IMG/VR virus record: IMGVR_UViG_3300047510_002062
Location: 1 to 64,000 of that record
DNA: 64,000 nucleotides
Source of the DNA: a virus
Strand: one strand, 5' to 3'
Both the position numbers and the translations under genes were made by a program. Shown here piece after piece: positions 32,067 through 56,556 of this stretch. The notes under the pieces are model-generated. The model was not told the DNA's origin. It saw only the letters and a program-made list of their open reading frames with translations, and made no database searches. Position 1 is the stretch's first letter. Each line of letters begins with the position of its first letter.

Positions 32067-32079
32067 GTGTTGTAAGACA

Positions 32080-32108
32080 ATCATAGCAGGTCTTGCTTGG
32101 ATTGTCAA
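32080..32108 (-). promoter_or_regulatory. sigma70-type promoter for tRNA-Leu(TAA)
   Basis: Minus strand: TTGACA (32108-32103), a 17-bp spacer, TATGAT (32085-32080). The -35 box begins 2 nt after the 3' end of tRNA-Leu(CAA), so the promoter is packed between two tRNA genes. Confidence 0.85.
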
Positions 32109-32109
32109 G

Positions 32110-32190
32110 TGCCCCTGGTCAGATTTGAACTGACAAACCCGTAGGCGGTTGATTTTGAGTCAACTGTGTTTACCATTTCACCACAGAGGC
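32110..32190 (-). tRNA. tRNA-Leu (CAA)
   Basis: An 81-nt type II tRNA: acceptor GCCTCTG/CAGGGGC, anticodon stem GTTGA/TCAAC with loop CTCAAAA (anticodon CAA), long variable arm, T-arm GTCAGTTCAAATCTGAC, discriminator A. CCA is not encoded. Together with the TAA isoacceptor it covers the A/T-rich leucine codons that this AT-rich genome would favour. Confidence 0.93.
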
Positions 32191-32194
32191 AAGG

Positions 32195-32267
32195 TGCTCC
32201 TTGAGGGGATCGAACCCACCTGATACCGATTATGAGTCGGGTGCTTTCACCAGATAGCTAAAGGAGC
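32195..32267 (-). tRNA. tRNA with CAT anticodon (probably Met)
   Basis: A 73-nt cloverleaf: acceptor GCTCCTT/AAGGAGC, anticodon loop CTCATAA (CAT), T-arm with GGGTTCGATCCCC, discriminator A. The outer pair of the anticodon stem is C-T and the second pair of the T stem is T-T, so two mismatches are visible. Elongator Met is the simplest reading. A lysidine-modified Ile tRNA is possible and cannot be excluded from sequence alone. Confidence 0.85.
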
Positions 32268-36552: not shown

Positions 36553-39500
36553 TTAACTCCTTTTAATTTTACCAACACAATCTATCACTTCAATTAACTT
36601 TGCCCCTTCTGGAATCGTGTCTTGGGTCTCAGAAAGATCTCCAAATCTTTGGACTCCAAATACTGGAATAATTATAGCATTTATTCCAGTATTACTTTTT
36701 AATGTAATTTTTGGTCTTTCCAAAAATCCAATTCCAGGATTAACTATATTTACTGTAATCAATTTACCAAAGTCATTGAAGACTGGCTCCAATACTGCAC
36801 CATTACTGGGTTGAATATGTATTTTATCTTCGGGGGAGTAATTTATTCCAGAATTTCCAATTAAAATATCGTTAATTTTTAATACAGCAGGGTATGATCC
36901 ATCGGAAGATGATGGGTAATTAATATCTGTTCCGGTTATGCCATCTTTAACATCTCCAGGATTATAAGTTGGTGTTGTCAAAGTCCCTGGATTTTCAATC
37001 AAAATACCTTCTTCCAATCCAAGTCCAGTAAATCTTTGCAATTCATTTCCAAAATTATCATAAACACCAACATCAGTACCGGGAGGTAAAAATACTAAGT
37101 CACCTGTGTTGACATTTACTGCAGTATTTGGGCGATAGAAATTATATCCAATATCCGGAGTTAAGACAATAGTTCCATCTCTATCTGAAATTTTTACTCC
37201 ATTTGAATATATTGATCCATCTGGACGATTTAGATATCCAGTTCCAGAGTCAACTACAATAATTTCTTGAACTGGAGATCCACCTGGTCCTGAGAATGTT
37301 CCACTTCCAGTATTTCCATTAGACTGCGATCCAACATCAAAAGCAGATACTACCGCAGATCCAGAAGAAGTTAAAGGAACATCTCCAACAAGTGCTTTAC
37401 TATTGTCCTGATTACCTCCAACAACTAGAGGAACACCTACTCCACCAGTAGTTACTTTATATGGTCCAACAGTAACCACTGCGTCATTTACTTTTAAAAC
37501 TTGCTCTCCAGGATTAATATTTTCTTTTATCAATAAAATATTTCCTCCTCTTCCTCCAGTTGTTACTGGATTTCCATCTATTGTTGCTTGGACACCATTA
37601 GCAATTACTGGAGAACCTCCAACTGCGCCAACTTTTACAAAAGAAACTGCAACTTTTTGATTATTTCCAGATTCTATAGTTCCAGTTCCGTCACCATTTA
37701 CGTTGACTTTATCTCCAGATTTGGAAGAAATGTCTCCAGTAAAATCTTCATTATTGTCATTGTCATCTACTGGGAAATTAACTTTATCAGCAGTAAAAAT
37801 TCCTTCCCCAACAAAAGTTCCGTTTCTTATAATGCCAGTTCCCACAAAAGTACCTGTTCCTTTTCCGGATAAATTATTATCAAATCCAGAAAATCTACCT
37901 TCAAGAGATAATTCTTTATCATTTTCATCTTTAAAAATTATTGCTCCAGCTCCTTGAAATCTACCTTCGTGATAATTACCTCTGCCAGTAAACAAACCTT
38001 CATATGGACCCTTTATAATATTGATATCATTAATATTAAATAATGGTTTATCTATTATAACTTGTATTACTTTTCCGCCAGTTGAATTATTCATCTCCTT
38101 AGAGGTGACTAGAACATCACCTCCATCTCCTCCAACAGTAACCTTTGTACCTCCCACAGAATTCCATAACAATGGACCAGCAGTAGTTATTATAGGTTGC
38201 CCAGGTCCACCTATGCATACATAATCGCCATCTGAAGTTGGACCAATGGTTAATAATTTTCCTCTATGCTCTAATAGACTATTACTGTTTATAGTACATA
38301 CAGTTAATGGAGTTCCTCCACTTCCACCAATGTATACATTTGATCCAGAATATAAAAGATCTTCACCAATTCCAGATTCTTTTGCCCCTTCTGGTAGTAA
38401 ATCATAGAATTGATTGTCTATTGGTTTTGCATTAATTTTTAATACAGAAGCTTTAGTAGTAGTATCCTTGAAATTTTCATCATTTAATTCATCTTGGGGA
38501 GCTCTACTAGTGTCTCCTCCAGATCCACCAAAGAAAGTTTTATCATCTTCTAATCTAGCATAAAGAACTGCTCCACTACCTGGTCCTTCATTATCTAACA
38601 CTACTGTTGGTGAAGATGTATATCCCGTTCCTCCATCAATAATATCAAATCCAAGGATATCTCCAGAATCTGATATTATTGCATTAGCAATAGCTCCAAT
38701 TCCACCACCACCTATAAATTTAACTTTAGGTGGTTTAGCAACTTTTGGTTTAGTGTTGCAACTATTGACTCCAATACCGCTAAAAGATGCACTCTTTATA
38801 GCACCTGAAAGATCTGGTACTTGGAAGTCAAAAGATCCATCCCCATACCAAAAATTCCACCCATCACCAGCAGAACAATCCGCATCTTCATCGCATGTTA
38901 AAAATGCAATAATACCTAAAATCGCACTCAACGCATTAAAAATTCCACTAAGAATTCCGCTAACAGATCCTAAAACACCATCAACCACACTTGTTATTGC
39001 AGAAAGTCCTTGAGTTATTGGTCCGAGTATTCCTCCCAATAAACTTGCCATAAAACTTTGTGCAGCACAAAATGCAGCATCTACACCGCCAAGAATTTTA
39101 TTAACTAAACTTGTAAGTAAATTTAAAATGGCACTGAATAATCCCTTGATCAATTTATTAAATACACATGCAAGTATATCAAGTATAAGTTGCATTATTT
39201 CATTTGTAACTGAAGTGTTATTTGGGGGAATGAGTGATTGTAATGGTAGGACCACGAATTTATTCAATAAATTCTCAGCAAATCCTCTCATTTTATCAAT
39301 AACACCCTTCATAAAATCTGCTATTAGTAATGCAGCATCTTGAATAAGTGAATTCAATCCTGTCAATACATCACTTACCTGTCCAGCAAATGTTCCAATT
39401 GCCGATTTTACCTTGGTAATAAATGCTTGTATATCTTGAATGACTTTTAATATACCTTTAAGAGCTCCGCCTCCCCTAACATCACATTCATATGTTTTTG

Positions 39501-40110
39501 GGACATAATGAGTTCTTTGTTCCTTTGGTATATCAATGTCTCTTACATCAAGAACATAGTTACCTCCAGCAGATTCGCTTAGGGGATTATCCCCATCTGG
39601 ACCCTCTGCTAACATGTTCTTATTGCCAAATTGTTTTGCTCCACCTAGTCCATTTCCACCTGTCCTAGGAACAAATCCTTTATCTGGATCATTTCCAAAT
39701 AATCTAGTTTGAGCATGATTTGGAAGAGTTCCAAAAATAATAGGTTCAGTTGCTTCTATTCCATCCTTATAAAATCCAAAAACATAATTTCCCTGTCTTA
39801 AGTTTGGTGTTTGAACGGATCCGGCGTGTCCACTACCAGCAGTAACTGGCATAGACACTTCTGCCATATAAAGTTCTTCATCCTTTGTAGTCTTTTCATC
39901 ATTTTTTTCTTCAAGTTCTCTTCCAAAGATTCTTACTTTATATCGATATCCATATCCTTGAAAGTCATCTCTGGTTCTTAAACTATGAAGTCCATCTTCT
40001 CTAGCATGGTTTTGGACCCATGTAGTTTCATCAACAATTTGCCCAAACCACATGAAGGCGAGATTTACTCCACTAGTATCAGTATTAAATAAAGAACCTT
40101 GACTTGACAT
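36553..40110 (-). CDS. 5: gp5-like baseplate hub/spike protein, 1185 aa
   Basis: Residues 45-165 look like the OB-fold of gp5 (GYRYKVRIFGRELEEKN, MPVTAGSG, LRQGNYVFGFYKDGIEATEP, IIFGTL). No T4-lysozyme domain is visible. Residues about 215-425 are long hydrophobic and amphipathic helices (VLTGLNSLIQDAALLIADFM, LLGGILGPITQGLSAITSVV), unusual for a spike. Residues about 690-760 have MORN-like units (FTGRGNYHEGRFQGAGAIIF, GTGTFVGTGIIRNGTFVGEG). The rest is beta-rich with GGTGYTSSPTVVL-type strands. It is twice the size of T4 gp5 (575 aa). The peptidoglycan-degrading role seems to have moved to the upstream long tail proteins. Confidence 0.75.
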   Translation of the reverse strand: MSSQGSLFNTDTSGVNLAFMWFGQIVDETTWVQNHAREDGLHSLRTRDDFQGYGYRYKVRIFGRELEEKNDEKTTKDEELYMAEVSMPVTAGSGHAGSVQTPNLRQGNYVFGFYKDGIEATEPIIFGTLPNHAQTRLFGNDPDKGFVPRTGGNGLGGAKQFGNKNMLAEGPDGDNPLSESAGGNYVLDVRDIDIPKEQRTHYVPKTYECDVRGGGALKGILKVIQDIQAFITKVKSAIGTFAGQVSDVLTGLNSLIQDAALLIADFMKGVIDKMRGFAENLLNKFVVLPLQSLIPPNNTSVTNEIMQLILDILACVFNKLIKGLFSAILNLLTSLVNKILGGVDAAFCAAQSFMASLLGGILGPITQGLSAITSVVDGVLGSVSGILSGIFNALSAILGIIAFLTCDEDADCSAGDGWNFWYGDGSFDFQVPDLSGAIKSASFSGIGVNSCNTKPKVAKPPKVKFIGGGGIGAIANAIISDSGDILGFDIIDGGTGYTSSPTVVLDNEGPGSGAVLYARLEDDKTFFGGSGGDTSRAPQDELNDENFKDTTTKASVLKINAKPIDNQFYDLLPEGAKESGIGEDLLYSGSNVYIGGSGGTPLTVCTINSNSLLEHRGKLLTIGPTSDGDYVCIGGPGQPIITTAGPLLWNSVGGTKVTVGGDGGDVLVTSKEMNNSTGGKVIQVIIDKPLFNINDINIIKGPYEGLFTGRGNYHEGRFQGAGAIIFKDENDKELSLEGRFSGFDNNLSGKGTGTFVGTGIIRNGTFVGEGIFTADKVNFPVDDNDNNEDFTGDISSKSGDKVNVNGDGTGTIESGNNQKVAVSFVKVGAVGGSPVIANGVQATIDGNPVTTGGRGGNILLIKENINPGEQVLKVNDAVVTVGPYKVTTGGVGVPLVVGGNQDNSKALVGDVPLTSSGSAVVSAFDVGSQSNGNTGSGTFSGPGGSPVQEIIVVDSGTGYLNRPDGSIYSNGVKISDRDGTIVLTPDIGYNFYRPNTAVNVNTGDLVFLPPGTDVGVYDNFGNELQRFTGLGLEEGILIENPGTLTTPTYNPGDVKDGITGTDINYPSSSDGSYPAVLKINDILIGNSGINYSPEDKIHIQPSNGAVLEPVFNDFGKLITVNIVNPGIGFLERPKITLKSNTGINAIIIPVFGVQRFGDLSETQDTIPEGAKLIEVIDCVGKIKRS

Positions 40111-40340: not shown

Positions 40341-41684
40341 TTATTTTCTCCCTATGGAATCTCTTATTAAACACAAAGAAGTATAATTAGCTTTAGGAGT
40401 TATTCTATGACAGAGATCCATTATCATATATAGTCCACTTTTATTCTTACTTGGTCTTTGAACCTTAGCGGATCCAATTTCTGGGAAATCGACCATAATC
40501 ATATCTCCAACATGAAGAGCAAAATCAAGTGGAATAATAATTGTCAATCTTACAGTTCCTAATTGATTATATCTATTTGTCGCTTGCCTCAATATTTCAT
40601 TCATTTCAAAATTTATTTCTTTTGATTCTTTCTTTTGCTCTCCCCAAGTTCTTCCAGTAGGTAAATTACCAGTGTCAAACATTTTTTGTGTTTCTCTGGT
40701 AACCTTTTCTTGGAAATTTAAGTCAGTTGCAACTTTCCAGAATTCTTTTCCACCGTTATTTGTTATTAAATTTTGAGAAATATAATTAAACTCTTCTTTT
40801 CCATATGCATTATCAAATGGATTAAAGGATTCAAGTTGCCTTTGGAATAATGATCCAGAAATCAAATGATCATCCAAGTTAATGCTAGTTATTTCCAAGT
40901 GATTAATTATCTTAGCATCATATCCTGGTGGAATTTCATTGACATTGGTTGAAATGTATTTTCTAACTGGAGGTTGACTGAATAAAATATCAACTGATTT
41001 AAAATAAAATCCTCCAGGAGTTCCATCGGTTCCTCTAGCAATTTCATAAAACAAATAACCCGCTAAAATTCCTTGTCCACCAATACCTTCGGGAACTGTT
41101 CTCTTTGCTAACCAATTTATTTTATGAAATGGTTTTTCTCTACCACCCAGAAAATTAAAATCATTTTTGGATGGATCAACAAAAACTGATTTTGGTGTTT
41201 TTATGCAGTCATCTTTTAAGATAGAATAGACATTATCAGATATTTTTCTTTCATATTTTTTAGTGACTCTACTTTCTAAAGTATGATTCACCATTGATTC
41301 CTTTGAATAAAACCAAGTATCTATAGTTGTTGCTGTAGTTCTTCCATCATTCATTGCCTCCCTTGCATTATTTGAAGTTCTTAATTCGTATGCACCTTTA
41401 AAAATTAATTTCTGAAATTTATTCTTAAAGAATTGCCTAACGACTAATTCTGTTTTTTCACCAACACTATTATTAAATCCAGCCTCGGACAAAGCTTTTC
41501 CACCACCATATCCAGTATCAACATACTTCACATTTACTCTGACAGTAGAATCAAAGATACTTTCGTATATCATTAAAGAAGTCACACCTTCTCTAATGTC
41601 AACAGTTTCTCCAGAATAATTTGATGTTATCTCAAATAAATCTATCTGAGCTTCACCACCTGCCGCTGCTGAATTTACACCCAT
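40341..41684 (-). CDS. 27: gp27-like baseplate hub protein, 447 aa
   Basis: Length and position match T4 gp27 (391 aa), the trimeric hub that holds gp5. Near the C-terminus it has VRLTIIIPLDFALHVGDMIM and YMIMDLCHRITPKANYTSLC, the late beta-barrel pattern of hub proteins. The N-terminal part has VDIREGVTSLMIYESIFDST. It starts 1 bp after the stop of the 1971-aa protein and is followed by gp5-like. The name rests on order and pattern, so the certainty is moderate. Confidence 0.65.
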   Translation of the reverse strand: MGVNSAAAGGEAQIDLFEITSNYSGETVDIREGVTSLMIYESIFDSTVRVNVKYVDTGYGGGKALSEAGFNNSVGEKTELVVRQFFKNKFQKLIFKGAYELRTSNNAREAMNDGRTTATTIDTWFYSKESMVNHTLESRVTKKYERKISDNVYSILKDDCIKTPKSVFVDPSKNDFNFLGGREKPFHKINWLAKRTVPEGIGGQGILAGYLFYEIARGTDGTPGGFYFKSVDILFSQPPVRKYISTNVNEIPPGYDAKIINHLEITSINLDDHLISGSLFQRQLESFNPFDNAYGKEEFNYISQNLITNNGGKEFWKVATDLNFQEKVTRETQKMFDTGNLPTGRTWGEQKKESKEINFEMNEILRQATNRYNQLGTVRLTIIIPLDFALHVGDMIMVDFPEIGSAKVQRPSKNKSGLYMIMDLCHRITPKANYTSLCLIRDSIGRK

Positions 41685-41685
41685 T

Positions 41686-44600
41686 TTACTGTCTTCTTAA
41701 CATATATGAGTTGTCTGGTGTTCTACTTGCTGAGTCTAAAGACACTCTGTTTCCAGGTTCTTTTATTTTAACTTCTCTAATGACTTCAATTTCTTGGAAT
41801 ATAATCATAGGTACATCATTTTCTCTCTCATAGGAAGCAAATTCATCTACCTTTCTACTATTTATTGGTTGTGTTTTAAGATTCTCTCCAACCAATCCAC
41901 CATCCTGCATTCCCACCCATTTTCTGGGGTCATACCAAGCTCTATTTGGTTTTGCCGATGCTTTTGGTTTTGCTGCTGGTGCCTTTGGTTTTGCTGCTGG
42001 TGCCTTTGGTTTTGCTGAGGTTGTTGGCATTGTTGCAGCAGATGCGGGAGCAGATCCAGTCAATATATTTAAAACAGTATTTCCAATTTTCCCAAAAGTA
42101 TCTTTAACAGAACTGATCATTCCAGAATCTTTTGGTTTTGGATTCCATTTTTTACCATCCCAAACAACAGGTTTATTTGATATAACAGATTCTGTACCAA
42201 TTGGTCTTTTTTTTGCAAGTTCTGCTTGTGCTTTTTGTTCCTCTCTTCTTTTTGCAGTTACTTTTGCACCTTCTCCACCCAATAATGAATTAACAAATTT
42301 ATTAAAAATAGGTCCTGGATCACCACCATCAACTGCATTAACGTGGAAAGATACGTGATCATACACTCCACCTTGCATACTATCGCTGGATCCCGAAGCC
42401 CCTTGCCATCCCACAACTGTTCCTGGTGGAATTTTTTCACCATTTTTGAATTTTTTAAATGGTTTATTTCCATGTCCCATCATAACTTCAAACATTTTTC
42501 CACTTCTAGGATCCCTATAAAAATAAGATCCAACATTTCCAAATCCAGCAGAACCTTCTGCACCTTTATAAACTCTTCTTTGAGTACCATCGACATCTAT
42601 AGATTTTCTTCCAGCATTTCTTCCTCCAGGAATTTTATCCAAATATATTAATTCATATGGGAAAGAAATTTCTACACCTCTATTTCCGTATGGTCCTTCC
42701 TTTGCATTATCATTAAAACTTTTTCCAATTTCACCACGTCTTCCAAATAACTCAAGGTCAGCACCAGTATCTTGGCCATCAGTATTAGGAACACCCAATC
42801 TTCCATACCTCTTATCTTTTGTTGATCCAGCAATTTGTTGGTCTTTTTCAACATCGCCCGGATCTCCACCAGATTCTATAGGTCTTTCTTTACTATCTTG
42901 TGGTTTTTCTTTTATTGCCTTATTTCTTGCTGCAAAATTTGCTGCTAAAGCATCAGTATATTTTGTTCCTTTTGTTCCAAATCCATCAGCACCAACCTGA
43001 CCAGTCCTTATCCAGTTTTCCGCACCACCCATTCCTTGGTTATGGGCATATCCAAGAATTTGTAATTTTCTTTCAGGAGATGCCTTTGCATATGTTGGAT
43101 TACGCATCAAATACTTATGATTTGCCATAGTAAATGCAGCAAACATTTGCTCTTGAAGTGCTGGATTTGATCTAAATGCAGATCTAGATGAAGAGTTGTG
43201 TCCAGGATCTGGTATTCCCAAAATTCTAGCCGCGTCAGTTTTTGCAGCTGCACCTAGTTGATATCTTCCATCATAATGGTCGCCGCTTCCTCCAGAAATA
43301 TTATATGAACCTTTAGATTCTATATGTGCAATTGTGTTTCTGAAGATATCCCAATCTTCAGAACTAACTCCCATTTCTTCGTATAATTTATGATCCAATT
43401 TAATAGCACCTTTTGCCATAGGGGCAGCAGGTCTAAAATCAGTTGGACCTCTAGATCTTTGACTTCCAGGAATTAATGGTTCTGTTGGTTCTGCCTCAAC
43501 ATCTACTGGGCGATAACTACCACCAGATCCACCACCACCTGATGGAGAACTACCTCCTGCGCCACCACCTGATGGAGAACCACCCCCACCACCAGAAGAA
43601 CCTCCCCTATAATCAGTCACGGATTCCATTGTAAAATCGGAAGACATTGTTGCTAAAGTATCTGCTCCAGAATCTTTATCCTCACCCTTATAATCAAAGT
43701 GTCCTCCATGAGATCCTGGATAGTCATTTACAACCCATCCATACTTTCTTCCTTTTTGTCTCATCCATGTTTGAGATGAACCATGAATATCTAAAGCATT
43801 ACCACCTAAGTGATTTGAATTTGGAACTCCACCAACTTTTCTATTATGAGATTCACTTCTCTTACCACTTGCAACGTCAGATCCTTTAACAACCCCCTTA
43901 GAATCCTGGATCATTTCGCCAAATGCGGTTATTCCCCCCTTAGAAAGAATTAAAGGTCTTCCATTAGCATCAGTAACTCCTTTAATTGCGAATCCACTTC
44001 CAGTTTGAGGATGACTTGCTGGTGTTACTTGTACTCTTTGCTTCTTACCATTTTCTTTTTCTTCCTCATTTTGTTGAGATTCTTCAGTTTTTGTTTCTTG
44101 TTGTTTATTGAATTTTTCTAAATTTTCTGTAGTTTTTTGGGAAGAGTCCCTTATTTGAGTTGGAGATTTAGGATCTTCTTCTTTAGAATATTGATCTGTA
44201 TTTGGTTGAACAAATGCTCTACCTTTAACAGATTCACTAATTCTGGAGATTAAATCTGGTGCCACTTTAGATAAAGTAACTTTATTTTCTATGGAGTTTA
44301 AACTTGCAAAAAAGTCAACTCCCAAAAGATTAACAGTATCTGCATCAATAACAAATTCATTTTTATGAATTTTTACCAAACCTTCTTTATTAACTAAACC
44401 GCCATGGAATCTAGATTTAGTTTCAACATGTAAATGAGTTGGATGACTATATGCACCTGGACCACTTTTTTGACCATCTTTATAAAATCCCCAATTATCA
44501 TGAATCAACATTTTAACTGCAGGATTTTTTTGAAGAGCTGATGCAACTTGACCATATCTCCCAGGATATCCAGAAGTCCAATCTGTAACATCAATTGCTC

Positions 44601-47600
44601 TTCCTTCATAATGACCTCTACCACTATGAACATTGCTTACAAATCCTTTACCTGGGGTATATGATCCGCCAGATGGTACGGGATTTTTAGTAAAATCCGG
44701 ATGCTCTGCAACAGCAAACTTTTGTGATACTAAGTTCTTGCCAATATCGACAATACTTCCTCCCGAACCAGAAACTTTATCTTTAGGTTTATTTTTATCA
44801 TTAGGAGATGTAGATCTAGGATTTGGTCCTTTATATGATTCTTCTCTTTTTGCTTTTGATTCTTGAGCTTGTGCCGTTTGAGCCTGACCCAAATAACCTT
44901 TATATTTTGCCTCCAAATCGGAATACTTTTTAACTGGTTGCCCATAAGCACTAACTCCATTCATATTTGGGAGAGATGCCCAAACACCAGAGATCTTTGC
45001 AATAAGTTGCCTATTAATAGGACCATTAATTTCTGCATCACTTAATTTTGCTTGACCTTTCATATATCCAGCAATAGCCATTTTATCCTGATTTTCAGGA
45101 GTAAATAATGCTTTAGATGGATCCAATCCAGCTCTTGCAGCAAATACTTCTGGTGTCATCATTTGATATGCACCAACAGCAGCAGAAGTATATCTGCCAT
45201 AAGTTGCTGCTCCAGATTTTAATCTTTTCTTTTGTTCAGCAACAACTTGATTGATAGTCATCTTGGAAAGATCCATATCGGTCCTTCCGCCAAACCAAGT
45301 GTTATAACCTTGTGGTCCAGAAGTTCCTTCTGCCCATCTTATAGTATTAAGAAGTGCTTTTGCATTGGGAGTCAATCCACCCAATCCTCCACCTCCCCCA
45401 CCGCCGCCTGATGGAGCACCGGATGGAGAACTTGTTCCTCCTCCAGATGGAGAATCATATCTTGGATCATATCCACTTCTTGCTTCAGGATCTCTATCTC
45501 TAACATCACCACCTCCATTAATCGATGCTAAATTGAATTCAAGATCCATTATTTTTTTTCTGATGTCTGTTATGGCATCATTAGAACCTTTTTCAATAGA
45601 TAGTGCTACTACGTTTCTAAGTTCTTCTGTAGATTTTTCAGAGATGGCACCAATGACAGATTGAGTTGTTGGGATTCCACCAGAAGTAAATTTTTGTACT
45701 TCTTTTGCTTTATCTGATATATCAGTAATATTTTTTACATTAGATAAAGATTGTCCAATGTAAACTATCTTTTCTGCTAATCTATTATAAGAAGGTTTAT
45801 CTGGTTTTTGACCCATTGCAATATCAACAGAAATACCCATCAATTCACCAACGAAAGGTATTTTCTTAAGTGTTTTTGAAGTTTCTTTTAAAGAATCTAA
45901 TGCCAACCCAGAAACTTGTTGATTACTATTTTGATTACTATTTTGATTTTGAGACGTTGAAGAATCATCGTCACCACCTCCAAAAAGGGAAGACCACCAA
46001 GACTTTGATTTAGTTTCTTGCTTTTTATTTCCAGATTCATCTTGTCCCGAAGTTGGAAATAGTATGTTTATTTTTGCTGCACCACCAACATCTTTACCTT
46101 CTACAGTGTCCTGTATTTTTCCTTTTTTGGGTGGATCTATTTTTTCGTTTTTAATTTCATCAACATTTCCTCCAAGTTCATATTTTCTAACAATTCCACC
46201 TCTATAATTTCCTGGAATAGCAGGAGTTTGTGGCTGAGATACTTTGTCGGCACCAGTGACTTTATCTGCAATTTTACCTGCCGCCCAAGCACCGCCAGCA
46301 GCACCTATAACCCCACCAAGAATGCCACCAATAAGAGTTCCTGGCCCAGGAAATATACTTCCAATTGCTGCGCCTATTGCGGCTCCACCTTTAGCACCAG
46401 CCCATGCCCCACCAACACCAGCAGCAGTTCCAGCACCCGCTTGGAGATTATTTTGACCTGATGCCTTTCTCCCCATAAAATCAGTTGCTGCCGTAGCAAT
46501 CAATGCTATTGGTCCAGCAGCTTTTCCTAAAAATTTACCAGCACCAGATACTAATTTACCTCCACTTTTTCCAGCAACTTTTATTCCAATTCTAGTTAAT
46601 GCTCTACCACCACCGCGAGCAAAAACTCCACCAGTTGCTTTATTTGCTAATCCTTTTACACCTTTAGTTACTCCCCTAACAAAATTACCACCCCTCTTTC
46701 CAGCAAGTTTTATTGCTGTCCTTTGAATTGCTCTACCAGTACCTCTTCTAAATACTCCCCCAGTCTTTTGTGCTGCTCTACCTGCAGCATCTTTAATCTT
46801 ATCTTTTCCCTTTCCTTTTTTTAAAAAATCAAGAACATTAAATCCCGCATCACCAGCAAGCATTGCTGCAAGTAACGCAAGATCCATCATCATGTTAAAT
46901 TTTTGAGTGAATTTTTGAATATCTTCTTCAGATCTTGCCCCGCTCACAATGGCAAGAGTTTTTGTAAGACCATTAACTAGTCTTATTCCACCAGATACGA
47001 ATGTGGTTAATACATTTGCTACTCCACCAAAAAATTCTAAAATTACTGGGACTGCTTTGGAAACTTGCCCTATTACATTGCCAATGGCTGGTAAAAATGG
47101 AATTATATTTTTATACAACCAATTCATGAAGTTCCAAAATATAAACCTCTTTATGAAATCAAAAACTCCAAACTGAGGAGTTTGTAATCCCATAAATTTA
47201 AAACCTCTGGATCCTGAAGATGGTTTTTCACCTTTCAATCTTTTTTCTTTTTTAGAATATCTTCCCCTCTCTTCTTCTTTTCTTTTTTTATCTTCTTCAT
47301 TTTTTTGAAAAACAAATGATTCTTTTAATACAGAATCTATTTTTATTACTTTCTGCTCAATAGATTTTACTAAGTTTAGTAAGGAATCATTACTCGTTGA
47401 CTTTCCAAAAGAAATTGATTTTGATCTTACTGTTATTCCGCCCCCGGAAGATACTTGATTACTATATGGATTATTTTTTTTCTTTACCAGAGTATTACTT
47501 CCTTTAGATGAAGTAGCAGGAATAGTTTTATTATCCTGAGAGACAACAATTTGATTATTTTGCTTATTATCTGCACCAAGAAACTTAGTTAACGTTAACA

Positions 47601-47601
47601 T
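41686..47601 (-). CDS. long tail protein with five cell-wall hydrolase-type domains, 1971 aa
   Basis: Residues 70-125 are a charged coiled coil. 143-220 are hydrophobic helices and 365-455 a Gly/Ala-rich membrane-like segment. Then follow: about 745-905, a GH104/lambda-lysozyme-like domain (TIRWAEGTSG with the catalytic-type Glu, AAVGAYQMM, WASLPN); 960-1070, an M15-type peptidase (GHYEGRAIDV, HPTHLHVE); 1204-1310, a second M15 domain (SNHLGGNALDIHG, HGGHFDY); 1400-1555, a lysozyme/SLT-like domain (IAHIESKGSYN, DGRYQLG); 1655-1785, an M23-like fold (MMGHG, IPPGTVVGWQG, DHVSFHVN) whose usual HxH is altered. Its N-terminal layout resembles the 1788-aa protein upstream. GGGAGG gives a strong ribosome binding site. 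It is probably ejected or tip-associated and opens the wall. Confidence 0.75.
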   Translation of the reverse strand: MLTLTKFLGADNKQNNQIVVSQDNKTIPATSSKGSNTLVKKKNNPYSNQVSSGGGITVRSKSISFGKSTSNDSLLNLVKSIEQKVIKIDSVLKESFVFQKNEEDKKRKEEERGRYSKKEKRLKGEKPSSGSRGFKFMGLQTPQFGVFDFIKRFIFWNFMNWLYKNIIPFLPAIGNVIGQVSKAVPVILEFFGGVANVLTTFVSGGIRLVNGLTKTLAIVSGARSEEDIQKFTQKFNMMMDLALLAAMLAGDAGFNVLDFLKKGKGKDKIKDAAGRAAQKTGGVFRRGTGRAIQRTAIKLAGKRGGNFVRGVTKGVKGLANKATGGVFARGGGRALTRIGIKVAGKSGGKLVSGAGKFLGKAAGPIALIATAATDFMGRKASGQNNLQAGAGTAAGVGGAWAGAKGGAAIGAAIGSIFPGPGTLIGGILGGVIGAAGGAWAAGKIADKVTGADKVSQPQTPAIPGNYRGGIVRKYELGGNVDEIKNEKIDPPKKGKIQDTVEGKDVGGAAKINILFPTSGQDESGNKKQETKSKSWWSSLFGGGDDDSSTSQNQNSNQNSNQQVSGLALDSLKETSKTLKKIPFVGELMGISVDIAMGQKPDKPSYNRLAEKIVYIGQSLSNVKNITDISDKAKEVQKFTSGGIPTTQSVIGAISEKSTEELRNVVALSIEKGSNDAITDIRKKIMDLEFNLASINGGGDVRDRDPEARSGYDPRYDSPSGGGTSSPSGAPSGGGGGGGGLGGLTPNAKALLNTIRWAEGTSGPQGYNTWFGGRTDMDLSKMTINQVVAEQKKRLKSGAATYGRYTSAAVGAYQMMTPEVFAARAGLDPSKALFTPENQDKMAIAGYMKGQAKLSDAEINGPINRQLIAKISGVWASLPNMNGVSAYGQPVKKYSDLEAKYKGYLGQAQTAQAQESKAKREESYKGPNPRSTSPNDKNKPKDKVSGSGGSIVDIGKNLVSQKFAVAEHPDFTKNPVPSGGSYTPGKGFVSNVHSGRGHYEGRAIDVTDWTSGYPGRYGQVASALQKNPAVKMLIHDNWGFYKDGQKSGPGAYSHPTHLHVETKSRFHGGLVNKEGLVKIHKNEFVIDADTVNLLGVDFFASLNSIENKVTLSKVAPDLISRISESVKGRAFVQPNTDQYSKEEDPKSPTQIRDSSQKTTENLEKFNKQQETKTEESQQNEEEKENGKKQRVQVTPASHPQTGSGFAIKGVTDANGRPLILSKGGITAFGEMIQDSKGVVKGSDVASGKRSESHNRKVGGVPNSNHLGGNALDIHGSSQTWMRQKGRKYGWVVNDYPGSHGGHFDYKGEDKDSGADTLATMSSDFTMESVTDYRGGSSGGGGGSPSGGGAGGSSPSGGGGSGGSYRPVDVEAEPTEPLIPGSQRSRGPTDFRPAAPMAKGAIKLDHKLYEEMGVSSEDWDIFRNTIAHIESKGSYNISGGSGDHYDGRYQLGAAAKTDAARILGIPDPGHNSSSRSAFRSNPALQEQMFAAFTMANHKYLMRNPTYAKASPERKLQILGYAHNQGMGGAENWIRTGQVGADGFGTKGTKYTDALAANFAARNKAIKEKPQDSKERPIESGGDPGDVEKDQQIAGSTKDKRYGRLGVPNTDGQDTGADLELFGRRGEIGKSFNDNAKEGPYGNRGVEISFPYELIYLDKIPGGRNAGRKSIDVDGTQRRVYKGAEGSAGFGNVGSYFYRDPRSGKMFEVMMGHGNKPFKKFKNGEKIPPGTVVGWQGASGSSDSMQGGVYDHVSFHVNAVDGGDPGPIFNKFVNSLLGGEGAKVTAKRREEQKAQAELAKKRPIGTESVISNKPVVWDGKKWNPKPKDSGMISSVKDTFGKIGNTVLNILTGSAPASAATMPTTSAKPKAPAAKPKAPAAKPKASAKPNRAWYDPRKWVGMQDGGLVGENLKTQPINSRKVDEFASYERENDVPMIIFQEIEVIREVKIKEPGNRVSLDSASRTPDNSYMLRRQ

Positions 47602-47620: not shown

Positions 47621-50600
47621 TTAAAACGGTGAAACAATGCCATAAGTATCTTGAATGCGTTGCCTTTCAGTAACAGCACTAGGATTAGTGCAAAGTGGAT
47701 CAAACATAACTTCTTTCTGACCGGCTTTTTGCCCACCACCTCCAGAAGCATTTCCTCCAGATTTGATTGGTGGAAGTTTTACAATTCCACCTTTACCTTC
47801 AGAGGGTTTTTCGTATGGTTTGATTCTGTTACCTATAGTATTTAAAGTTTTTCCAAGTTTTGCTGGAGAAGAATTGCTATCTGTGGAACCAACTATACTA
47901 TCAAAGAATACTTTTCCAAGTCTATCTACACTATCCTTTGGAATTACATATTCTCCAGGTTGTAATGCTGTAAATTGCCTATCAGCAGTTCCTCCTGGAA
48001 TATCAACTCCAGAATTTTCCATTACTAATCCTTTAGTAAACAATGACGAGAAATTCATTCCTGTATTGAACCCTCTTAATCCATATGCTTCTCCAAGTCT
48101 ACCTTGACGTTCCAATGAATTGGATCTCATTCCACGAAGTTGGTTTAGCCTATCGTCAATGGATTCTTTTTTATTAATATTCAAATTAAGATTTGGATTA
48201 AATGCAAGTGATGAATTATTCTTTATTTTACTTGAATCGAAATTGGATTTTATACTTGGAATATTCAATCCAAGATTTACATTGTATGGATTTACTTTAT
48301 TTGAATCCGCTTCCTTTAATTTATTTTGATTTAAATTAATATTTGGATTAAATTCTATAGCAGTATTGGATTTGTTCGATAACTGTGAAAAATTAACTCC
48401 TGATCCAAATGCTCTTAGACCATATGCCTCCCCAAGTCTACCTTGACGTTCCAGTGAATTAGACCTCATTCCACGAAGTTGATTCAATGAATCATTGATA
48501 GATTCTTTTTTACTTGCATTTTTATTGTCATTTAAATTTATACTTGGATTAAATGCAACATTTGTGTCTATTGAACTTTTTGGTTTATTATTGAATAATG
48601 AGATCCAATCTATCTGAGAATTAAATAACTTGGATGGACCCTCTTCTTTCGCTTTAATTGATGCTTCTACTACTCGCTTCTCAACTTCCTGAGGTGACAA
48701 TCCCTCTAATCTTGCTCGTTCTCTTGCTGCTCTTGCTGCAGCATAAACATGAGGCATTGATGCGGCCGTTTTTGTTGGATCTAACGCAAATGAAGACTTT
48801 TTATTACTACCGGTCAAATTGTTTAAATTAAATGCAAGATTGGTATTATTCTTAGATTTATTCAAATCATAAGTTGTAGTATTATTTAATGGTTTTATTC
48901 CAACTCCTGTATTAACTGAACTACCAAATGATTTTTTTGAAATAGAAGAAAAATCTACTCCAGTCCCAAATCCTCTCAATCCATATGCTTCCCCAAGTCT
49001 ACCCTGACGTTCTAATGAATTAGCTCTCATTCCACGAAGTTCATTTAGTGTATCAGAAATTGAAGATTTTTTCTTAGGATTTAAATTAACATTTGGATTA
49101 AATGCAAAAGATGTATTATTTTGGATTTTACTTGAATCAAAATTAGATTTTATGCTTGGAATATTCAATCCAAGATTGACTGGTTTTTTAAACACATCAT
49201 TAGTCAATCCTTCTTTCACTGGAGATGAATTGCTATCTGTAGATCCAACAATATGATCAAAAAATCCCTTTCCAAGTCTATCTACACTATCCTTTGGAAT
49301 TACATATTCTCCAGGTTGTAATGCTGTCAGTTGCTTGTCAGCAGTGCCACCGGGAATATTCAATCCGGTATTCTCTTTTATAAGTCCACTTGGGAAAAAT
49401 GAAGTCGATCTGGTTCCAATCTTTCTTGAAGTTTCTGTGACTCTTGGTCTTTTTGGTTTTCTTCCAAATAAATTAGAAAGAGGAGAAAATAAATTTCTTG
49501 CTCTTCCTCCTAATGAACGCATACCTTCACCAAGATTTCTGAATGGTTCGTTGAAATCTACATTTCTCTCTTGCAATGTTGGTATATTTACATCAATTCC
49601 GTATCTATCCTTAAGATATCTATCTGGATTTTGAATATTTAATCTCCCTCCGCCAAAATTTACTAAACCACCATCTTGCAATCCTTGTACTCCGGTTTTT
49701 GATGAGAATTCTCCTTCATATTTTTGCTCTGCATATTTTTTTAAGGAAGGTATGGAAACATCAATGTCACCAGGATGAGATATTGGTTTTACATCGATTA
49801 AACTTCCGGCTAACTTAAGTTGTTTAGATTTTGTTCTTCCACTAGTGGCAGCAGATGCTGGTTGAGAAATCAAATTCAATAATCCATTAAATGCATTAGA
49901 TGCAAATTTTTTAGCACCCTTTACAAGTCCCCCGCCCTGCTTTCCAATCCATCCTCTAGGATCAATCGCCCACCTTTTGGGAGAAGGTGGTGCTGGTTTT
50001 GATCCTGCAGGTCTTGATGCTGGTTTTGATCCTGCGGATGCTGGAGGAGCAAAGAAATTTCCAATAGATGACATTGCCCTTGAGGCAATATTCATAATTG
50101 GATTTCCCTGTGCTGGTTTTGATGTTGGTTTTGGTGCTGCTGGACCAAACCCAGTTCCATAATTTACTCCACCAGATAATCCCTGGATTCTTCTTAAATT
50201 ATCCTGAGTTTCTGCAAGATGATTATATCCACCATTGATATTGTATGTAAATGCCTCACTATCACCTCGCTTTGCCATATCAGCAAAACTTACACCAAAT
50301 GTTTTCTCTCTATCTTCAAGATAATATATTGTTGAAAGTGCTTGAACTCTAGGATCAGTTGCTAAAAGATCTGGATTTTTTACTACATCTATTCCCTTAT
50401 ATCCATTTTTTGCCAACCATTTATTCAATCCCTCATAATGAGTTCTTCCGGTTAATTGAATTGCTCCCCTTCCACGGAAATTATATCCATCATCAAATCC
50501 TTTATTACCTAAATCTTTTCTATTTCCATAACCTTCTCCAAAATAATAATATCCCTCCTTCCCCTTCGGATCTCTTGAATCCGAATTATACATTTCTTTC

Positions 50601-52987
50601 GCTCTACTAAAGTTTTGAGATTCCACAAGTAACCTTGCGGTCAATTGATCCATGAATTTCTTATCACCCCATCCTTTCTCTTTAAATCTTCCAGTTTGAA
50701 GCATTCTATAAAGAAGTGGAATAGACTTTGCAAGTGTTGGATCAAATTTATGATTTGGATCTCCTGATATTTTTCTTCCAAGATTTAATACAGGAGTACC
50801 TCCAGCAATTCCACCATTGGAGAATCCATGAATTATTCCACCATTAGAAAATCCTGGGAGACTTTTTCCTCCTTTTGTTTTTATGTTATCGCTATCAACC
50901 TTTTGTGGTTTTCTTTTTGAAAGCCATGCTGGAATATTAATTCCAAATTTATTGTATATACTCTGCTGAACATCTGGAGATAAAATTGCCTCTCCTCTTT
51001 TAACAGCAATTGTAGTTGGACTTCCTATATTTGAAGATGATCCACTTAATGCCCCAGTTACTCCTCCAGTTAATGCACCAATTGGACCTCCAAGTGCCCC
51101 ACCAACACCCACACCAGACATTGCCTTCATGAGAAGACTTTGATCTTTTTCAGTTAATATGGCATCACCTATGTTCGCCTTTATTAACGTATCATCCTTT
51201 CCTGCACCAGTGATTGGTACACCATCTCCTGAAGATATTCTATCAACTACTCCACCAATATTGAATGAACTAGTTTTTGAAGCATCTTTTGATTGCTTTT
51301 CAACTTCTGGTCCTGTTTTTTGTAGGATTAAATTTGCTAATCCAGGAAGACCACCCATTTGAATGAACTTTGGATCTTTATCAAGACCACTCGTTTCAAC
51401 TTCTCTAGTAGCTTGATTAAACTGATCCTTTACTTTAGAATCTTTAAGTAATCCAGATCCTAATATGGATCCAATACCACCCAATCCACCCAAAGATGCC
51501 GCTATTGGCAATGAACTTAAATTGGAAGAAATGTCTCCAGCAGTTTCTAATCCCCTTTTTCCAAGAGAAAGTCCCAAACCAATAGGACTATATTTCAATG
51601 CATTGAGTGCTAACCCACCTATACCCCTAAAAGCACCACCAGCAGTTTTTGATATTCCCGAAGATGCAAATTCTGTAGTTTTTTGTAAATTTTGAAATCC
51701 CTGTTTTCCAACCTTTAGTGCTAATCCTAACGGAGAATACTCAAGAGTTTTTCCAACACCTTCTTTTGCTGCATCAAAAACTCCAGGAGTAATTTTACCA
51801 AGATTTTCAGCACCAAATTTTCCGGCTTTGAACATCAATCCCAAAGGACTGTATTCAAATGCTTTTCCTATAGAACCAGCTATTCCACCTTTTTCAAATT
51901 TTTCAGTTGGTTCTGAAGGAAGGTTTGGTAATTCTGTGTTTGGTGGTGCCTCTGTGTCCCCCGAAGATGACTTTTCTCCAGGCATTAAAGATTTACCGAC
52001 TGCTACTGCTCCTAGTCCCAATCCAGCAAGGGCAGCTATTTTTCCTTTGGCACCCAGTTTACCTATGACGGGAATTAATTTTTTAGCAATAACAACTGCC
52101 ATTTTGGCAGTCCATACCCCCAACTTTACAGTAAATCTAGTTATAAATCTACCAATCGATGTACCAAAAGCAAGCCAAGACCCAACCAACAAAACCCAAT
52201 GATCACGAAGAAACATTATAATGTCTACGACTTTCTTTTGATTATTTGGATCACTGAACCATTCGCTGAACATTTTAAATGCTTTAGCAGCAAACATCCA
52301 GAAAAGAAAGTTTTTAATTCGTTGGAATAGTTGTTGTAATGGAGATAATGCTTTCTCTGCTGCTTTTATTATTATTGGCGTATCTTTCTTTTCAGAAGAA
52401 ACACTTTCCATTTCATCTTCTTTAGATTCCGCTCTAGATCTTTCTGAAGATCTTCTAGAACTGTCGGCGGATTTTCTTTGAAATGCTAGTTGATTTTCTA
52501 GTGTCGTTAAAATGGATCCTACAGTTTTGTCGATATTTTTTAAGATCGACAATAGAGAATCCGACTTTGGTTTTGGTTCCTCTGTTTTTGTTTGATCTTC
52601 TACTGTAGTCTTTGAGGTTTTATAAGTTCCCGTTCCTACAAGACTTTTTACTGGCTTAACATCATTATTACTTTTTCTTTTATTATTGTCAACAAACTTA
52701 GATATATTTGTTACTTTAGTGGGATCTATTGGATCCCTTTTAACTTTCTTTTTCTTTTTAGAAGTTTTAAAAACAGTTTCTTTTTTTACCCCTTTTACTC
52801 TCTTAAGTTCTTCTGTTATTCTTTGCGTATCATCAGAAGAATACTTTGATTCGTTCATTCTAGCAGCAACTGCTGCTTCTCTTAATGCTCTAAAATAATC
52901 TTCCCAAGACAATTCGTAATCATCTTGAAGACCCAACAAGTCAATAATATTCTGTTCAATTACTTGACTTGTTGGGTTAGAATCCAT
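47621..52987 (-). CDS. tape-measure-position tail protein with GH19-like domain, 1788 aa
   Basis: It directly follows the gp26/gp51-like pair, where a tape measure gene is expected. Residues 130-215 are a Ser/Lys-rich coiled region. 222-340 are hydrophobic (NFLFWMFAAKAFKMFSEWFS). 375-480 hold three EYSPLGL..K.GK units. 750-940 is a GH19-type glycosidase domain (RGRGAIQLTGRTHYEGLNKW, NPDLLATDPRVQALS). The C-terminal third has three copies of LRGMRSNSLERQGRLGEAYG and two of TALQPGEYVIPKDSVDRLGK. The GEYVIPKD motif is typical of phage tape-measure ends. It is partly paralogous to the 1971-aa protein. It overlaps the upstream 61-aa gene by 11 bp. Confidence 0.75.
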   Translation of the reverse strand: MDSNPTSQVIEQNIIDLLGLQDDYELSWEDYFRALREAAVAARMNESKYSSDDTQRITEELKRVKGVKKETVFKTSKKKKKVKRDPIDPTKVTNISKFVDNNKRKSNNDVKPVKSLVGTGTYKTSKTTVEDQTKTEEPKPKSDSLLSILKNIDKTVGSILTTLENQLAFQRKSADSSRRSSERSRAESKEDEMESVSSEKKDTPIIIKAAEKALSPLQQLFQRIKNFLFWMFAAKAFKMFSEWFSDPNNQKKVVDIIMFLRDHWVLLVGSWLAFGTSIGRFITRFTVKLGVWTAKMAVVIAKKLIPVIGKLGAKGKIAALAGLGLGAVAVGKSLMPGEKSSSGDTEAPPNTELPNLPSEPTEKFEKGGIAGSIGKAFEYSPLGLMFKAGKFGAENLGKITPGVFDAAKEGVGKTLEYSPLGLALKVGKQGFQNLQKTTEFASSGISKTAGGAFRGIGGLALNALKYSPIGLGLSLGKRGLETAGDISSNLSSLPIAASLGGLGGIGSILGSGLLKDSKVKDQFNQATREVETSGLDKDPKFIQMGGLPGLANLILQKTGPEVEKQSKDASKTSSFNIGGVVDRISSGDGVPITGAGKDDTLIKANIGDAILTEKDQSLLMKAMSGVGVGGALGGPIGALTGGVTGALSGSSSNIGSPTTIAVKRGEAILSPDVQQSIYNKFGINIPAWLSKRKPQKVDSDNIKTKGGKSLPGFSNGGIIHGFSNGGIAGGTPVLNLGRKISGDPNHKFDPTLAKSIPLLYRMLQTGRFKEKGWGDKKFMDQLTARLLVESQNFSRAKEMYNSDSRDPKGKEGYYYFGEGYGNRKDLGNKGFDDGYNFRGRGAIQLTGRTHYEGLNKWLAKNGYKGIDVVKNPDLLATDPRVQALSTIYYLEDREKTFGVSFADMAKRGDSEAFTYNINGGYNHLAETQDNLRRIQGLSGGVNYGTGFGPAAPKPTSKPAQGNPIMNIASRAMSSIGNFFAPPASAGSKPASRPAGSKPAPPSPKRWAIDPRGWIGKQGGGLVKGAKKFASNAFNGLLNLISQPASAATSGRTKSKQLKLAGSLIDVKPISHPGDIDVSIPSLKKYAEQKYEGEFSSKTGVQGLQDGGLVNFGGGRLNIQNPDRYLKDRYGIDVNIPTLQERNVDFNEPFRNLGEGMRSLGGRARNLFSPLSNLFGRKPKRPRVTETSRKIGTRSTSFFPSGLIKENTGLNIPGGTADKQLTALQPGEYVIPKDSVDRLGKGFFDHIVGSTDSNSSPVKEGLTNDVFKKPVNLGLNIPSIKSNFDSSKIQNNTSFAFNPNVNLNPKKKSSISDTLNELRGMRANSLERQGRLGEAYGLRGFGTGVDFSSISKKSFGSSVNTGVGIKPLNNTTTYDLNKSKNNTNLAFNLNNLTGSNKKSSFALDPTKTAASMPHVYAAARAARERARLEGLSPQEVEKRVVEASIKAKEEGPSKLFNSQIDWISLFNNKPKSSIDTNVAFNPSINLNDNKNASKKESINDSLNQLRGMRSNSLERQGRLGEAYGLRAFGSGVNFSQLSNKSNTAIEFNPNINLNQNKLKEADSNKVNPYNVNLGLNIPSIKSNFDSSKIKNNSSLAFNPNLNLNINKKESIDDRLNQLRGMRSNSLERQGRLGEAYGLRGFNTGMNFSSLFTKGLVMENSGVDIPGGTADRQFTALQPGEYVIPKDSVDRLGKVFFDSIVGSTDSNSSPAKLGKTLNTIGNRIKPYEKPSEGKGGIVKLPPIKSGGNASGGGGQKAGQKEVMFDPLCTNPSAVTERQRIQDTYGIVSPF
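47860..49400 (-). repeat. internal repeats in the 1788-aa gene
   Basis: Three copies encoding LRGMR.NSLERQGRLGEAYG lie near 48060-48160, 48395-48500 and 48965-49070. Two copies of the TALQPGEYVIPKDSVDRLGK block lie near 47870-48000 and 49230-49380. The nucleotide sequences are nearly identical, which points to recent duplication within the gene. Confidence 0.8.
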
Positions 52988-53162: not shown

Positions 53163-53191
53163 TCCTATCCGAAAAAAGAAGAAAGACCTTC
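53145..53191 (-). promoter_or_regulatory. candidate programmed -1 frameshift signal
   Basis: Minus strand, in order: GAAGG (53191-53187, Shine-Dalgarno-like), 9 nt, slippery T TTT TTC (53177-53171) in the gp26 frame, 8 nt including the TAG stop, then a perfect hairpin ATGTCC-cacat-GGACAT (53162-53146). A -1 slip reads CGG ATA GGA ATG and enters the 61-aa frame without a stop. Confidence 0.65.
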
Positions 53192-53890
53192 AAGTACTAC
53201 TTCAGATTCTACACCAGTATTTGGATTCTTGATTTTCATTGTATGTGCAAGTTTTGGCATTGTTTCAAAGAATTTTTCAATTTGCTTAAATTGAATTGAA
53301 TTCATTTGATCTAGAAAATCTACCAATTCTTTTTTAGATACATCAGAAGAATCCCACACTTCCTCCTCATTGTAAATTTTATCGATACAAGAAGCGATTA
53401 GTTCAAATGATTGATCTACATTGGCACTATCTTGATTAATGTCAAAATTATTTTTAATGAATTGCTCCAATGATGGATACTTCATTTCCATCATTAAATG
53501 ATCATCTAATTTAATTTTGTTGTCATGGGCATCATCAACTAAAACATTAATATCATTAATTGCGATTGAAACTGGAACTTCAGTTATTCCATCATCGGGA
53601 CAAATGATATTAATATCAACAACTTCACCAACAGACTTTGCTCTAATGTTTAAGAACAAATACTCAATGTCAAAGGTTGGTAAATTTTCTACTTTCATAT
53701 TTTTGGGACTTTCAATACAATTCTTAATTACCTGTTTTACTGCATTGGTAATTTCTTTTGTATCTTCAGTCTCCATTGCTAAAACTAAAAGTTTCTCTTC
53801 CTTCACCAAAAACGGTCTGTACTTAATTTTCTGTTTTGTTGATGGAAGAATTAATTCATAATGGGGTGTTGAAATTTTAGGTAATGGCAT
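53165..53890 (-). CDS. 26: gp26-like baseplate hub/assembly protein, 241 aa
   Basis: Begins MPLPKISTPHYELILPSTKQ, followed by KIKYRPFLVKEEKLLVLAME. This is the conserved start of the T4_baseplate (gp26) family. It is 241 aa against about 208 in T4. The C-terminal part (DFLDQMNSIQFKQIEKFFET) is helical and ends GLSSFFG at a slippery sequence. A perfect late promoter lies 26 bp upstream. It precedes the 61-aa gene and the tape-measure-position protein. That order matches chaperone-then-tape-measure in other tailed phages and supports a chaperone role. Confidence 0.85.
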   Translation of the reverse strand: MPLPKISTPHYELILPSTKQKIKYRPFLVKEEKLLVLAMETEDTKEITNAVKQVIKNCIESPKNMKVENLPTFDIEYLFLNIRAKSVGEVVDINIICPDDGITEVPVSIAINDINVLVDDAHDNKIKLDDHLMMEMKYPSLEQFIKNNFDINQDSANVDQSFELIASCIDKIYNEEEVWDSSDVSKKELVDFLDQMNSIQFKQIEKFFETMPKLAHTMKIKNPNTGVESEVVLEGLSSFFG

Positions 53891-54845: not shown

Positions 54846-55304
54846 ATGCAAAGAAGAGAAGGAAAATATCATCAAGGTAAATTTAATCCAAGAAATCCAG
54901 AAAAGTATAAAGGTAAAGATGTAAGAAATATAGTTTATAGATCTTCTTGGGAATTGAAATTTATGAAATGGTGTGATCGAGAAGAAAATATTTTAGAATG
55001 GGGTAGTGAAGAGTTCTTTATTCCATACTATGATCCAACTACAAAAAAAGTTAGAAGATATTTTCCAGATTTTTATATGAAAGTTAAAGATAAAGAAGAT
55101 AATATTCAAAGGTATGTTGTTGAAGTAAAACCAAAAAATCAAGTATTAAAACCACAAAGAACATCCAGAAAAAAAGAAAAAACATTTTTGACTGAAGTGT
55201 TAACCTGGGAAAAAAATCAAGCAAAATGGAAAGCTGCAAGAGATTTTTGTGAGGATAGGATGATTAAATTTTCAATAATAACAGAAGATCAATTAGGGTT
55301 ATAA
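54846..55304 (+). CDS. 4: gp4-like head completion protein (nuclease fold), 152 aa
   Basis: The sequence has a PD-(D/E)XK-like layout: YRSSWELKFMKWCD (E36), then FFIPYYDPTTKKVRRYFPDF (P74-D75), then YVVEVKPKNQ (E93-K95). This is the conserved pattern of T4 gp4 (also called gp50) head completion proteins, about 150 aa long. It acts on filled heads before tails join. It is transcribed from a late promoter and followed by gp48 and gp53 on the same strand. Confidence 0.85.
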   Translation: MQRREGKYHQGKFNPRNPEKYKGKDVRNIVYRSSWELKFMKWCDREENILEWGSEEFFIPYYDPTTKKVRRYFPDFYMKVKDKEDNIQRYVVEVKPKNQVLKPQRTSRKKEKTFLTEVLTWEKNQAKWKAARDFCEDRMIKFSIITEDQLGL

Positions 55305-55307
55305 ATA
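55300..55307 (+). promoter_or_regulatory. T4-type late promoter TATAAATA overlapping gp4 stop
   Basis: A perfect TATAAATA on the plus strand that includes the TAA stop (55302-55304) of gp4, 31 bp before the gp48 ATG. Confidence 0.8.
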
Positions 55308-55337
55308 TTCTTATGCGAACACAGTCTGTATAAGTAG

Positions 55338-56555: not shown

Positions 56556-56556
56556 T

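Follow-up and report, generated by a model that had tools for sequence, protein, structure and literature searches.

A putative tail-hub protein of an uncultivated cyanophage carries four probable cell-wall hydrolase domains and a degenerate M23-like domain

In the first 64 kb (64,000 nucleotides; hereafter the window) of the 67.7-kb uncultivated virus record IMGVR_UViG_3300047510_002062, an open reading frame (ORF) that is uninterrupted over 1971 codons (41686-47601) encodes X2, a candidate multi-hydrolase tail-hub protein identified by its open frame and by a gene order that corresponds to that of cultured Kyanoviridae. X2, its domains and the neighbors described next are all encoded on the minus strand. 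X1, a paralogue of 1788 amino acids (aa) that has its N-terminal module in common with X2, lies upstream (47621..52987), and a 447-aa tail protein (40341..41684; PHROG 350, 5e-54) lies downstream in the position of T4 gp27. A hidden Markov model (HMM) of this tail protein matches gp210 of phage S-CREM2, and we used its gene as the marker for phage comparisons. Further downstream, a gp5-like spike/hub protein without a recognizable lysozyme domain is encoded at 36553..40110 (PHROG 1922, 1e-63). With gp26 at 53165-53890 and gp32, gp53, the gp48 cap and gp4 at 54846-58314, the order in the window reads gp32-gp53-gp48-gp4-gp26-X1-X2-tail protein-gp5. The hub part of this order is the same in S-RIM50, S-SM2, S-WAM1, RN05-S, S-CREM2 and S-N03, so that tandem X1/X2 genes, flanked by gp26/gp51 and by the gp27-position tail protein, are an arrangement also present in cultured Kyanoviridae. 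The sheath gene is absent from the 67.7-kb fragment, and a megablast search of positions 30000-54000 against phage records returned little except tRNA genes.

Five domains were found in X2 close to the residue blocks in which the original prediction, made from the sequence alone, had placed them (745-905, 960-1070, 1204-1310, 1400-1555 and 1655-1785), and the first four keep catalytic-type residues, as had been claimed. The first cassette (residues 745-905, 44887..45369) is a glycan-cleaving type domain of the GH104 (lambda-lysozyme) family. The profile built from 24 relatives hits both lambda lysozyme (1am7, E 1.7e-12) and the hub protein of cyanophage A-1(L) (8kea, E 1.2e-11), and the catalytic-type residue E758 is invariant across the alignment. 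The third cassette, M15b (residues 1192-1310, 43672..44028), matches Pfam Peptidase_M15_3 above the family cut-off (3e-7) and, as a profile, the M15 carboxypeptidase structures 4ox3 (1.2e-8) and 1lbu (5e-8). It retains H1264, D1271 and H1301, corresponding to an H-x6-D motif followed by a C-terminal histidine zinc ligand.

The second cassette, M15a (residues 950-1070, 44392..44754), belongs to PHROG 35997 (E 3e-48), and its residues H997, D1004, H1053, H1056 and H1058, which form an H-x6-D plus HxxHxH-type zinc site, are invariant in 17 relatives. Pfam returned nothing convincing for it and no M15 match. Among solved structures, the zinc motif HYEGRAIDVT ... HxxHLH is nearest to the N-domain of Sonic hedgehog, as expected for the LAS superfamily; since this profile match is weak (E 0.02 over 25 residues) and covers the zinc motif only, the assignment as an M15/hedgehog-like (LAS) zinc-peptidase domain depends mainly on the motif. 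The fourth cassette, SLT (residues 1400-1558, 42928..43404), matches PHROG 5867, annotated as 'endolysin', at 6e-61. Its profile found no convincing sequence match in PDB or Pfam, so its structure was predicted instead. The AlphaFold2 model (predicted local distance difference test score, pLDDT, 93) matches GH23-type lytic transglycosylases, best MltE (Z 13.7, 2.7 A over 142 residues), and the E1428-S1429 pair, which includes the putative catalytic glutamate, is invariant in 38 sequences. Judged by these residues and matches, the first four cassettes of X2 are probably working cell-wall-cutting domains. The idea that several bond types are attacked would thus hold for two classes, the glycan strand (GH104, GH23) and the stem peptide (the two M15-type domains), and does not extend to the fifth domain, which is probably not an enzyme.

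This fifth cassette (residues 1612-1790, 42232..42768) is the weakest-supported of the five blocks, with moderate sequence evidence for an M23 relationship. In a profile comparison with canonical cyanophage M23 domains, none of 4041 scored shuffles equaled its score, and its best blastp match outside the related phage L001 is an M23 domain (E 1.5e-4), with most weaker matches being M23 domains in register. Both catalytic motifs align collinearly: in the HxxxD motif the histidine is replaced by N1640 and the aspartate by E1644, and in the HxH motif the second histidine is replaced by S1751. The predicted loss of HxH is therefore borne out and extends to all three zinc ligands, while H1710 and H1749 are still present; 13 other cyanophage M23 domains in the alignment retain HxxxD and HLH. 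Pfam gave no match for the cassette, its AlphaFold2 model reached a pLDDT of only 43 and the hhalign probability was 65%, which would fit an unrelated beta-rich domain that has nothing to do with M23. Given the shuffle result, the M23 matches in register and the collinear motifs, we regard such an origin as quite improbable. At the sensitivity applied, a search of 84,980 prokaryote genomes found no relatives of the cassette; phage records yielded none beyond a weak Mycobacterium phage match (E 0.2), and in IMG/VR only the copies in L001/L002 were detected.

In the sister phage L001 the degenerate domain is 94% identical, with a nonsynonymous rate (dN) of 0.04, a synonymous rate (dS) of 0.50 and a dN/dS of ~0.08, and the adjoining C-terminal tail is 32% identical between the two. 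Such constraint is unlike that of a neutral wreck, indicating that a non-catalytic function is probable; most likely, the domain would bind peptidoglycan or position the other domains instead of cutting. Degenerate M23 folds with non-catalytic roles are known in bacteria (PMC9662197). The loss of this active site also shows that such losses are tolerated, and most relatives have 0-2 recognized domains, so that one could imagine only one or two active cassettes in a string that arose as a by-product of recombination, the remainder being neutral passengers. This is unlikely in our view, as catalytic or zinc residues are retained in all four other domains and dN/dS is ~0.08-0.17 in the compared cassettes, the degenerate one included.

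In the N-terminal part of X2, iterated HMM searches revealed a module of ~120 residues common to both paralogues (E 1e-24 in X2, where it covers residues 79-198, 47008..47367, and 2e-27 in X1), in which a charged, coiled-coil-like stretch precedes a hydrophobic FIxxFxxWNFxNWL segment. It is followed in X2 by an Ala/Gly-rich region with hydrophobic segments (residues 250-480, 46162..46854), which matches the tape-measure family PHROG 794 (1e-10), possibly for compositional reasons. A tblastn search with X2 residues 60-480 matched no cultured phage, the scaffold being too diverged for this method, and NCBIfam had no match for X1 or X2. X1 carries a GH19-like (chitinase/muramidase) domain at residues 771-940 (50168..50677; PHROG 181, 6e-20; PHROG 14712 'chitinase', 2e-18), which scores below the family cut-off of Pfam Glyco_hydro_19. 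Short repeated motifs occur in both proteins. The C-terminal third of X1 contains three copies resembling LNxLRGMRxNSLERQGRLGEAYGLRxF and two copies of GEYVIPKDSVDRLGKxFFDxIVGSTDSNSSP. In X2, an EFVIDxDTVxLLGxxFF motif follows the second cassette (residues 1083-1105, 44287..44355); it is also found in L001 and in a further related phage, L052, and has the form GEYVIPKDSVDRLG in X1. A general version, (G/N)E(F/Y)V(I/V)xxD(T/S)Vxxx(G)xxFF, recurs behind cassettes or near the C-terminus of X1 and X2 in all three related phages, and may be an anchoring or docking motif.

Alternatively, X1 and X2 could be tape measure proteins that replace T4 gp29 and carry their hydrolases as passengers, as in siphophage tape measures. 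The Ala/Gly-rich and hydrophobic segments and the PHROG 794 match fit this explanation, as does the location beside T4 hub genes, and the annotated stretches that were read name no other tape measure. Moreover, S-CREM2, with a tail of 418 nm, has X1/X2 proteins of 1565/1456 aa, and S-N03, with a tail of 138 nm, has proteins of 933/722 aa. However, this trend consists of two isolates, with cassette number and repeats as confounding factors; the lengths of X proteins in the census (~450 to >2200 aa) follow mostly cassette content, and the N module showed no sequence link to gp29. We therefore lean against a tape-measure function while taking it as a real possibility, and one that is compatible with, rather than exclusive of, a role as hub lysins. 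S-CREM2 gp124 (2668 aa), whose length would suit the 418-nm tail, was considered as an alternative tape measure and rejected: its start resembles a baseplate/fiber protein, and S-N03 with its 138-nm tail has a structural protein of ~2476 aa at a comparable place.

Comparison with close relatives suggested that the cassettes and the hub genes have different histories. The window, L001 and L052 form one clade (support 1.0) when the adjacent tail protein is used for tree building, and within it the window and L001 are sisters (support 0.99; tail protein 75% identical). Nevertheless, the X2 proteins of these sisters have only M15b and the M23-like domain in common, and their other cassettes differ in family. 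Conversely, the cassettes of the window are similar to those of phages with distant tail proteins: GH104 shows 72-78% identity to the GH104 domains of X1 proteins from phages at 31-33% tail-protein identity, SLT is 69-74% identical to proteins of phages with 20-32% tail-protein identity, M15b is 67-70% identical to X1 domains (tail protein 19-33%), and M15a is 60-65% identical to copies in phages with 17-33%. Values of dS were 0.50-0.66 for M15b, the M23-like domain, Ami2 and GH19, compared to 0.9-1.5 for scaffold segments. The simplest account of these sequence relationships is that cassettes were repeatedly gained and replaced via recombination among cyanophages; protein-domain mosaicism is documented in general for phage lysins (PMC10684548). 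One could go further and picture X2 as a cartridge holder, with a conserved hub scaffold and ~six slots in which different peptidoglycan-cleaving enzymes quickly succeed one another in adaptation to the wall chemistry of the host. M15b would be fixed in all three mega-proteins and the zinc-less M23 pseudo-enzyme in two of them, the latter under strong purifying selection as a module that binds peptidoglycan or activates enzymes, like the degenerate LytM factors EnvC and NlpD. We offer this extended version as a speculation that is more doubtful than not.

How unusual the window protein is was analyzed in a census of 134 distinct complete X proteins, whose domains were recognized with HMMs built in this analysis. 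No domain was recognized in 43 of them, one in 62, two in 25 and three in a single protein, so that 131 of the 134 have 0-3; the window X2 has five, and only the X2 proteins of L001 and L052 have more, with six each. As these cassettes served as queries for collecting the loci and the domain library is incomplete (Pfam, for example, detects a Glucosaminidase in S-RIM50 X2 that is outside the census models), the counts are lower bounds from a biased sample and are not population frequencies. Within these limits, the census rejects five domains as the common state. The six-domain X2 of L001 comprises amidase-2, SleB-like, M23, M15b, GH24 and degenerate M23 domains, several of them confirmed by Pfam (E 1e-5 to 1e-14). 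That of L052 comprises amidase-2, GH104, a block without assignment that was included in the count, M15b, SLT and an NlpC-like block named by sequence alone. In this protein (ORF 2901-9542), residues 1256-1375, in the cassette 2 region, contain several His/Asp motifs of a possible metallopeptidase without relatives in our set, and residues 1906-2072, in the cassette 5 region, match PHROG 13530 and have an NlpC/CHAP-like look. Thus, the outlier is the number of domains per X2, not their presence, and the X2 of the window is an extreme form of an already known kind of protein.

Direct evidence on where such proteins reside comes from S-CREM2, whose proteins at the X1/X2 positions, gp208 and gp209, are annotated as 'endolysin (virion protein)' and yielded 73 and 71 peptides, respectively, when purified virions were analyzed (PMC10665884). 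In our searches, gp208 (1565 aa) matched the N module (7.5e-9) and the GH19 model (3.5e-15), and gp209 (1456 aa) matched the GH104 model (8.8e-19). The abundance of this pair in virions supports virion-associated lysins that open peptidoglycan at entry, and together with the lytic domains of the A-1(L) hub (PMC10966104) it upholds the original view of a tail-hub protein that brings several wall hydrolases for entry. Inspection of the two genes (L177:6484-15555) by eye points to further stretches in both products: amidase-3-like and CHAP-like ones in gp208, in addition to GH19, and a GH24-like one in gp209, in addition to GH104 and a long QQTNGSVAP/QQSMGSV repeat region. The pair would then comprise about five hydrolases, in a phage with a 418-nm tail. 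Public records of Kyanoviridae X1/X2 proteins carry names such as 'endolysin', 'TolA protein', 'lysozyme murein', 'transglycosylase' and 'hypothetical protein', which are misleading in view of the S-CREM2 pair being a virion component.

These PHROG and RefSeq names would suggest that X2 is a lysis endolysin acting from within at the end of infection, and ORFs of 221-385 aa that stand alone (L097-L112 and others) do contain the SLT cassette as well. The fixed position in the hub cluster, the fused scaffold, the presence of the S-CREM2 proteins in virions and a separate gene annotated as endolysin elsewhere in S-N03 make this very improbable. We consider it likely instead that X2 is the second member of a virion-associated tail-hub lysin pair of the Kyanoviridae type, whose scaffold-anchored, recombining cassettes open the peptidoglycan at entry. 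The fast-evolving N-terminal scaffold, with its coiled coil and its hydrophobic and Ala/Gly-rich segments, would anchor X2 in the tail hub, the X1/X2 pair being most likely located in or near the hub. The independent, linker-separated hydrolase cassettes behind the scaffold would reach the periplasm or wall upon sheath contraction and cut locally, GH104 and GH23 acting on glycan strands, the two M15-type domains on stem peptides, and X1 contributing its GH19 glycan hydrolase, so that the tube or DNA channel could cross through the resulting peptidoglycan hole. In this lineage, five to six cassettes would have accumulated in X2, apparently from hub and lysin genes of other cyanophages.

Several points count against this interpretation. 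The enzymatic activity of the X2 domains, the hub location, the entry role and binding by the degenerate domain are all things that we infer, and the S-CREM2 authors proposed packaging in the capsid (PMC10665884), which leaves hub, tube lumen and capsid as candidate positions. The N-module profile had no sequence match to T4 gp29, gp27, gp28 or gp51, although distant gp29 homology would still be possible. Nor was the module detected in S-CREM2 gp209, so that the orthology of gp209 is based on gene order and cassette type. As to exchange, the dS of 0.94 for SLT (window/L052) is not below some scaffold values, and part of the contrast in identity could arise if enzyme domains evolve more slowly than the hub scaffold. 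Unequal evolutionary rates do not account for the different enzyme families that close sisters carry in the same region.

The closest counterparts of the pair are S-CREM2 gp208/gp209, S-RIM50 gp009/gp010 and S-SM2 SSM2_012/013, which likewise precede the gp27-position tail protein and gp5 as two adjoining genes and contain the N module, the same cassettes (GH104, GH19, M15a, M15b, Ami2) or both. In contrast to the window X2 with its 1971 aa and five cassettes, one of them degenerate, these proteins measure ~720-1565 aa and have fewer recognized cassettes each. The hub protein gp15 of A-1(L) (PDB 8kea), whose lysozyme domain is the one matched by our GH104 profile, also bears several hydrolase domains in one chain, namely lysozyme, endoglucanase and peptidase domains, of which two lyse host cells in vitro as single domains (PMC10966104). 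However, gp15 has 899 aa and three domains around the hub barrel itself, whereas X2 is separate from the gp27-position protein and has another scaffold and more domains. With SP-beta CwlP, TM4 Tmp and Tal proteins, X2 shares muralytic domains on a large tail protein; to our knowledge, tape-measure and tail-associated lysins elsewhere have one or two catalytic domains and are found mostly in phages of Gram-positive hosts.

X2 also resembles the T4 tail lysozyme gp5 in the presumed local cutting of peptidoglycan by the tail hub at entry. In T4, this activity is a single GH24 domain within the spike protein, whereas a Pfam scan of the gp5-like proteins from the window, S-SM2, S-WAM1 and RN05-S found no lysozyme (T4 gp5 as control: Phage_lysozyme, 1.3e-12). 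It had been proposed that the gp5-like spike of the window lacks a lysozyme domain and that the function may have moved to X2. The first part stands; the second is not specific to this phage, as S-SM2, S-WAM1 and RN05-S also have hydrolase cassettes in X1/X2 and a lysozyme-free gp5 in several of these phages leaves nothing special about the one in the window. A hub with several enzymes, combined with a lysozyme-free gp5, seems to be the general state in these phages. Not part of the original prediction were the GH19-bearing paralogue upstream, the exchange of cassettes among phages and the domain number as the exceptional trait.

Two other features of the window were noted. Five tRNA genes (Pro, Thr, two Leu and Met) are clustered at 31292-32267 on the minus strand, and the Pro tRNA among them is up to 99% identical to copies in cultured Synechococcus phages. 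Two large fiber-type proteins, at 10591-15159 and 1999-4353 (minus strand), have the same C-terminal PHROG families (17885, 3442), which suggests duplicated tail-fiber tips.

In T4, the entry enzyme is one lysozyme domain on the spike, whereas the T4-like cyanophages examined here lack a recognizable one and place different hydrolases on two hub proteins of their own, with combinations varying between close relatives. Public labels such as 'endolysin' or 'hypothetical' would need correction, given that the S-CREM2 pair is part of the virion. If its identity is confirmed, a dead M23-like domain that strong purifying selection maintains in a phage hub would parallel the degenerate LytM factors of bacteria. 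The varying cassette combinations would provide a natural series for examining, in laboratory Synechococcus, a link of entry enzymes to cyanobacterial wall chemistry or host range.

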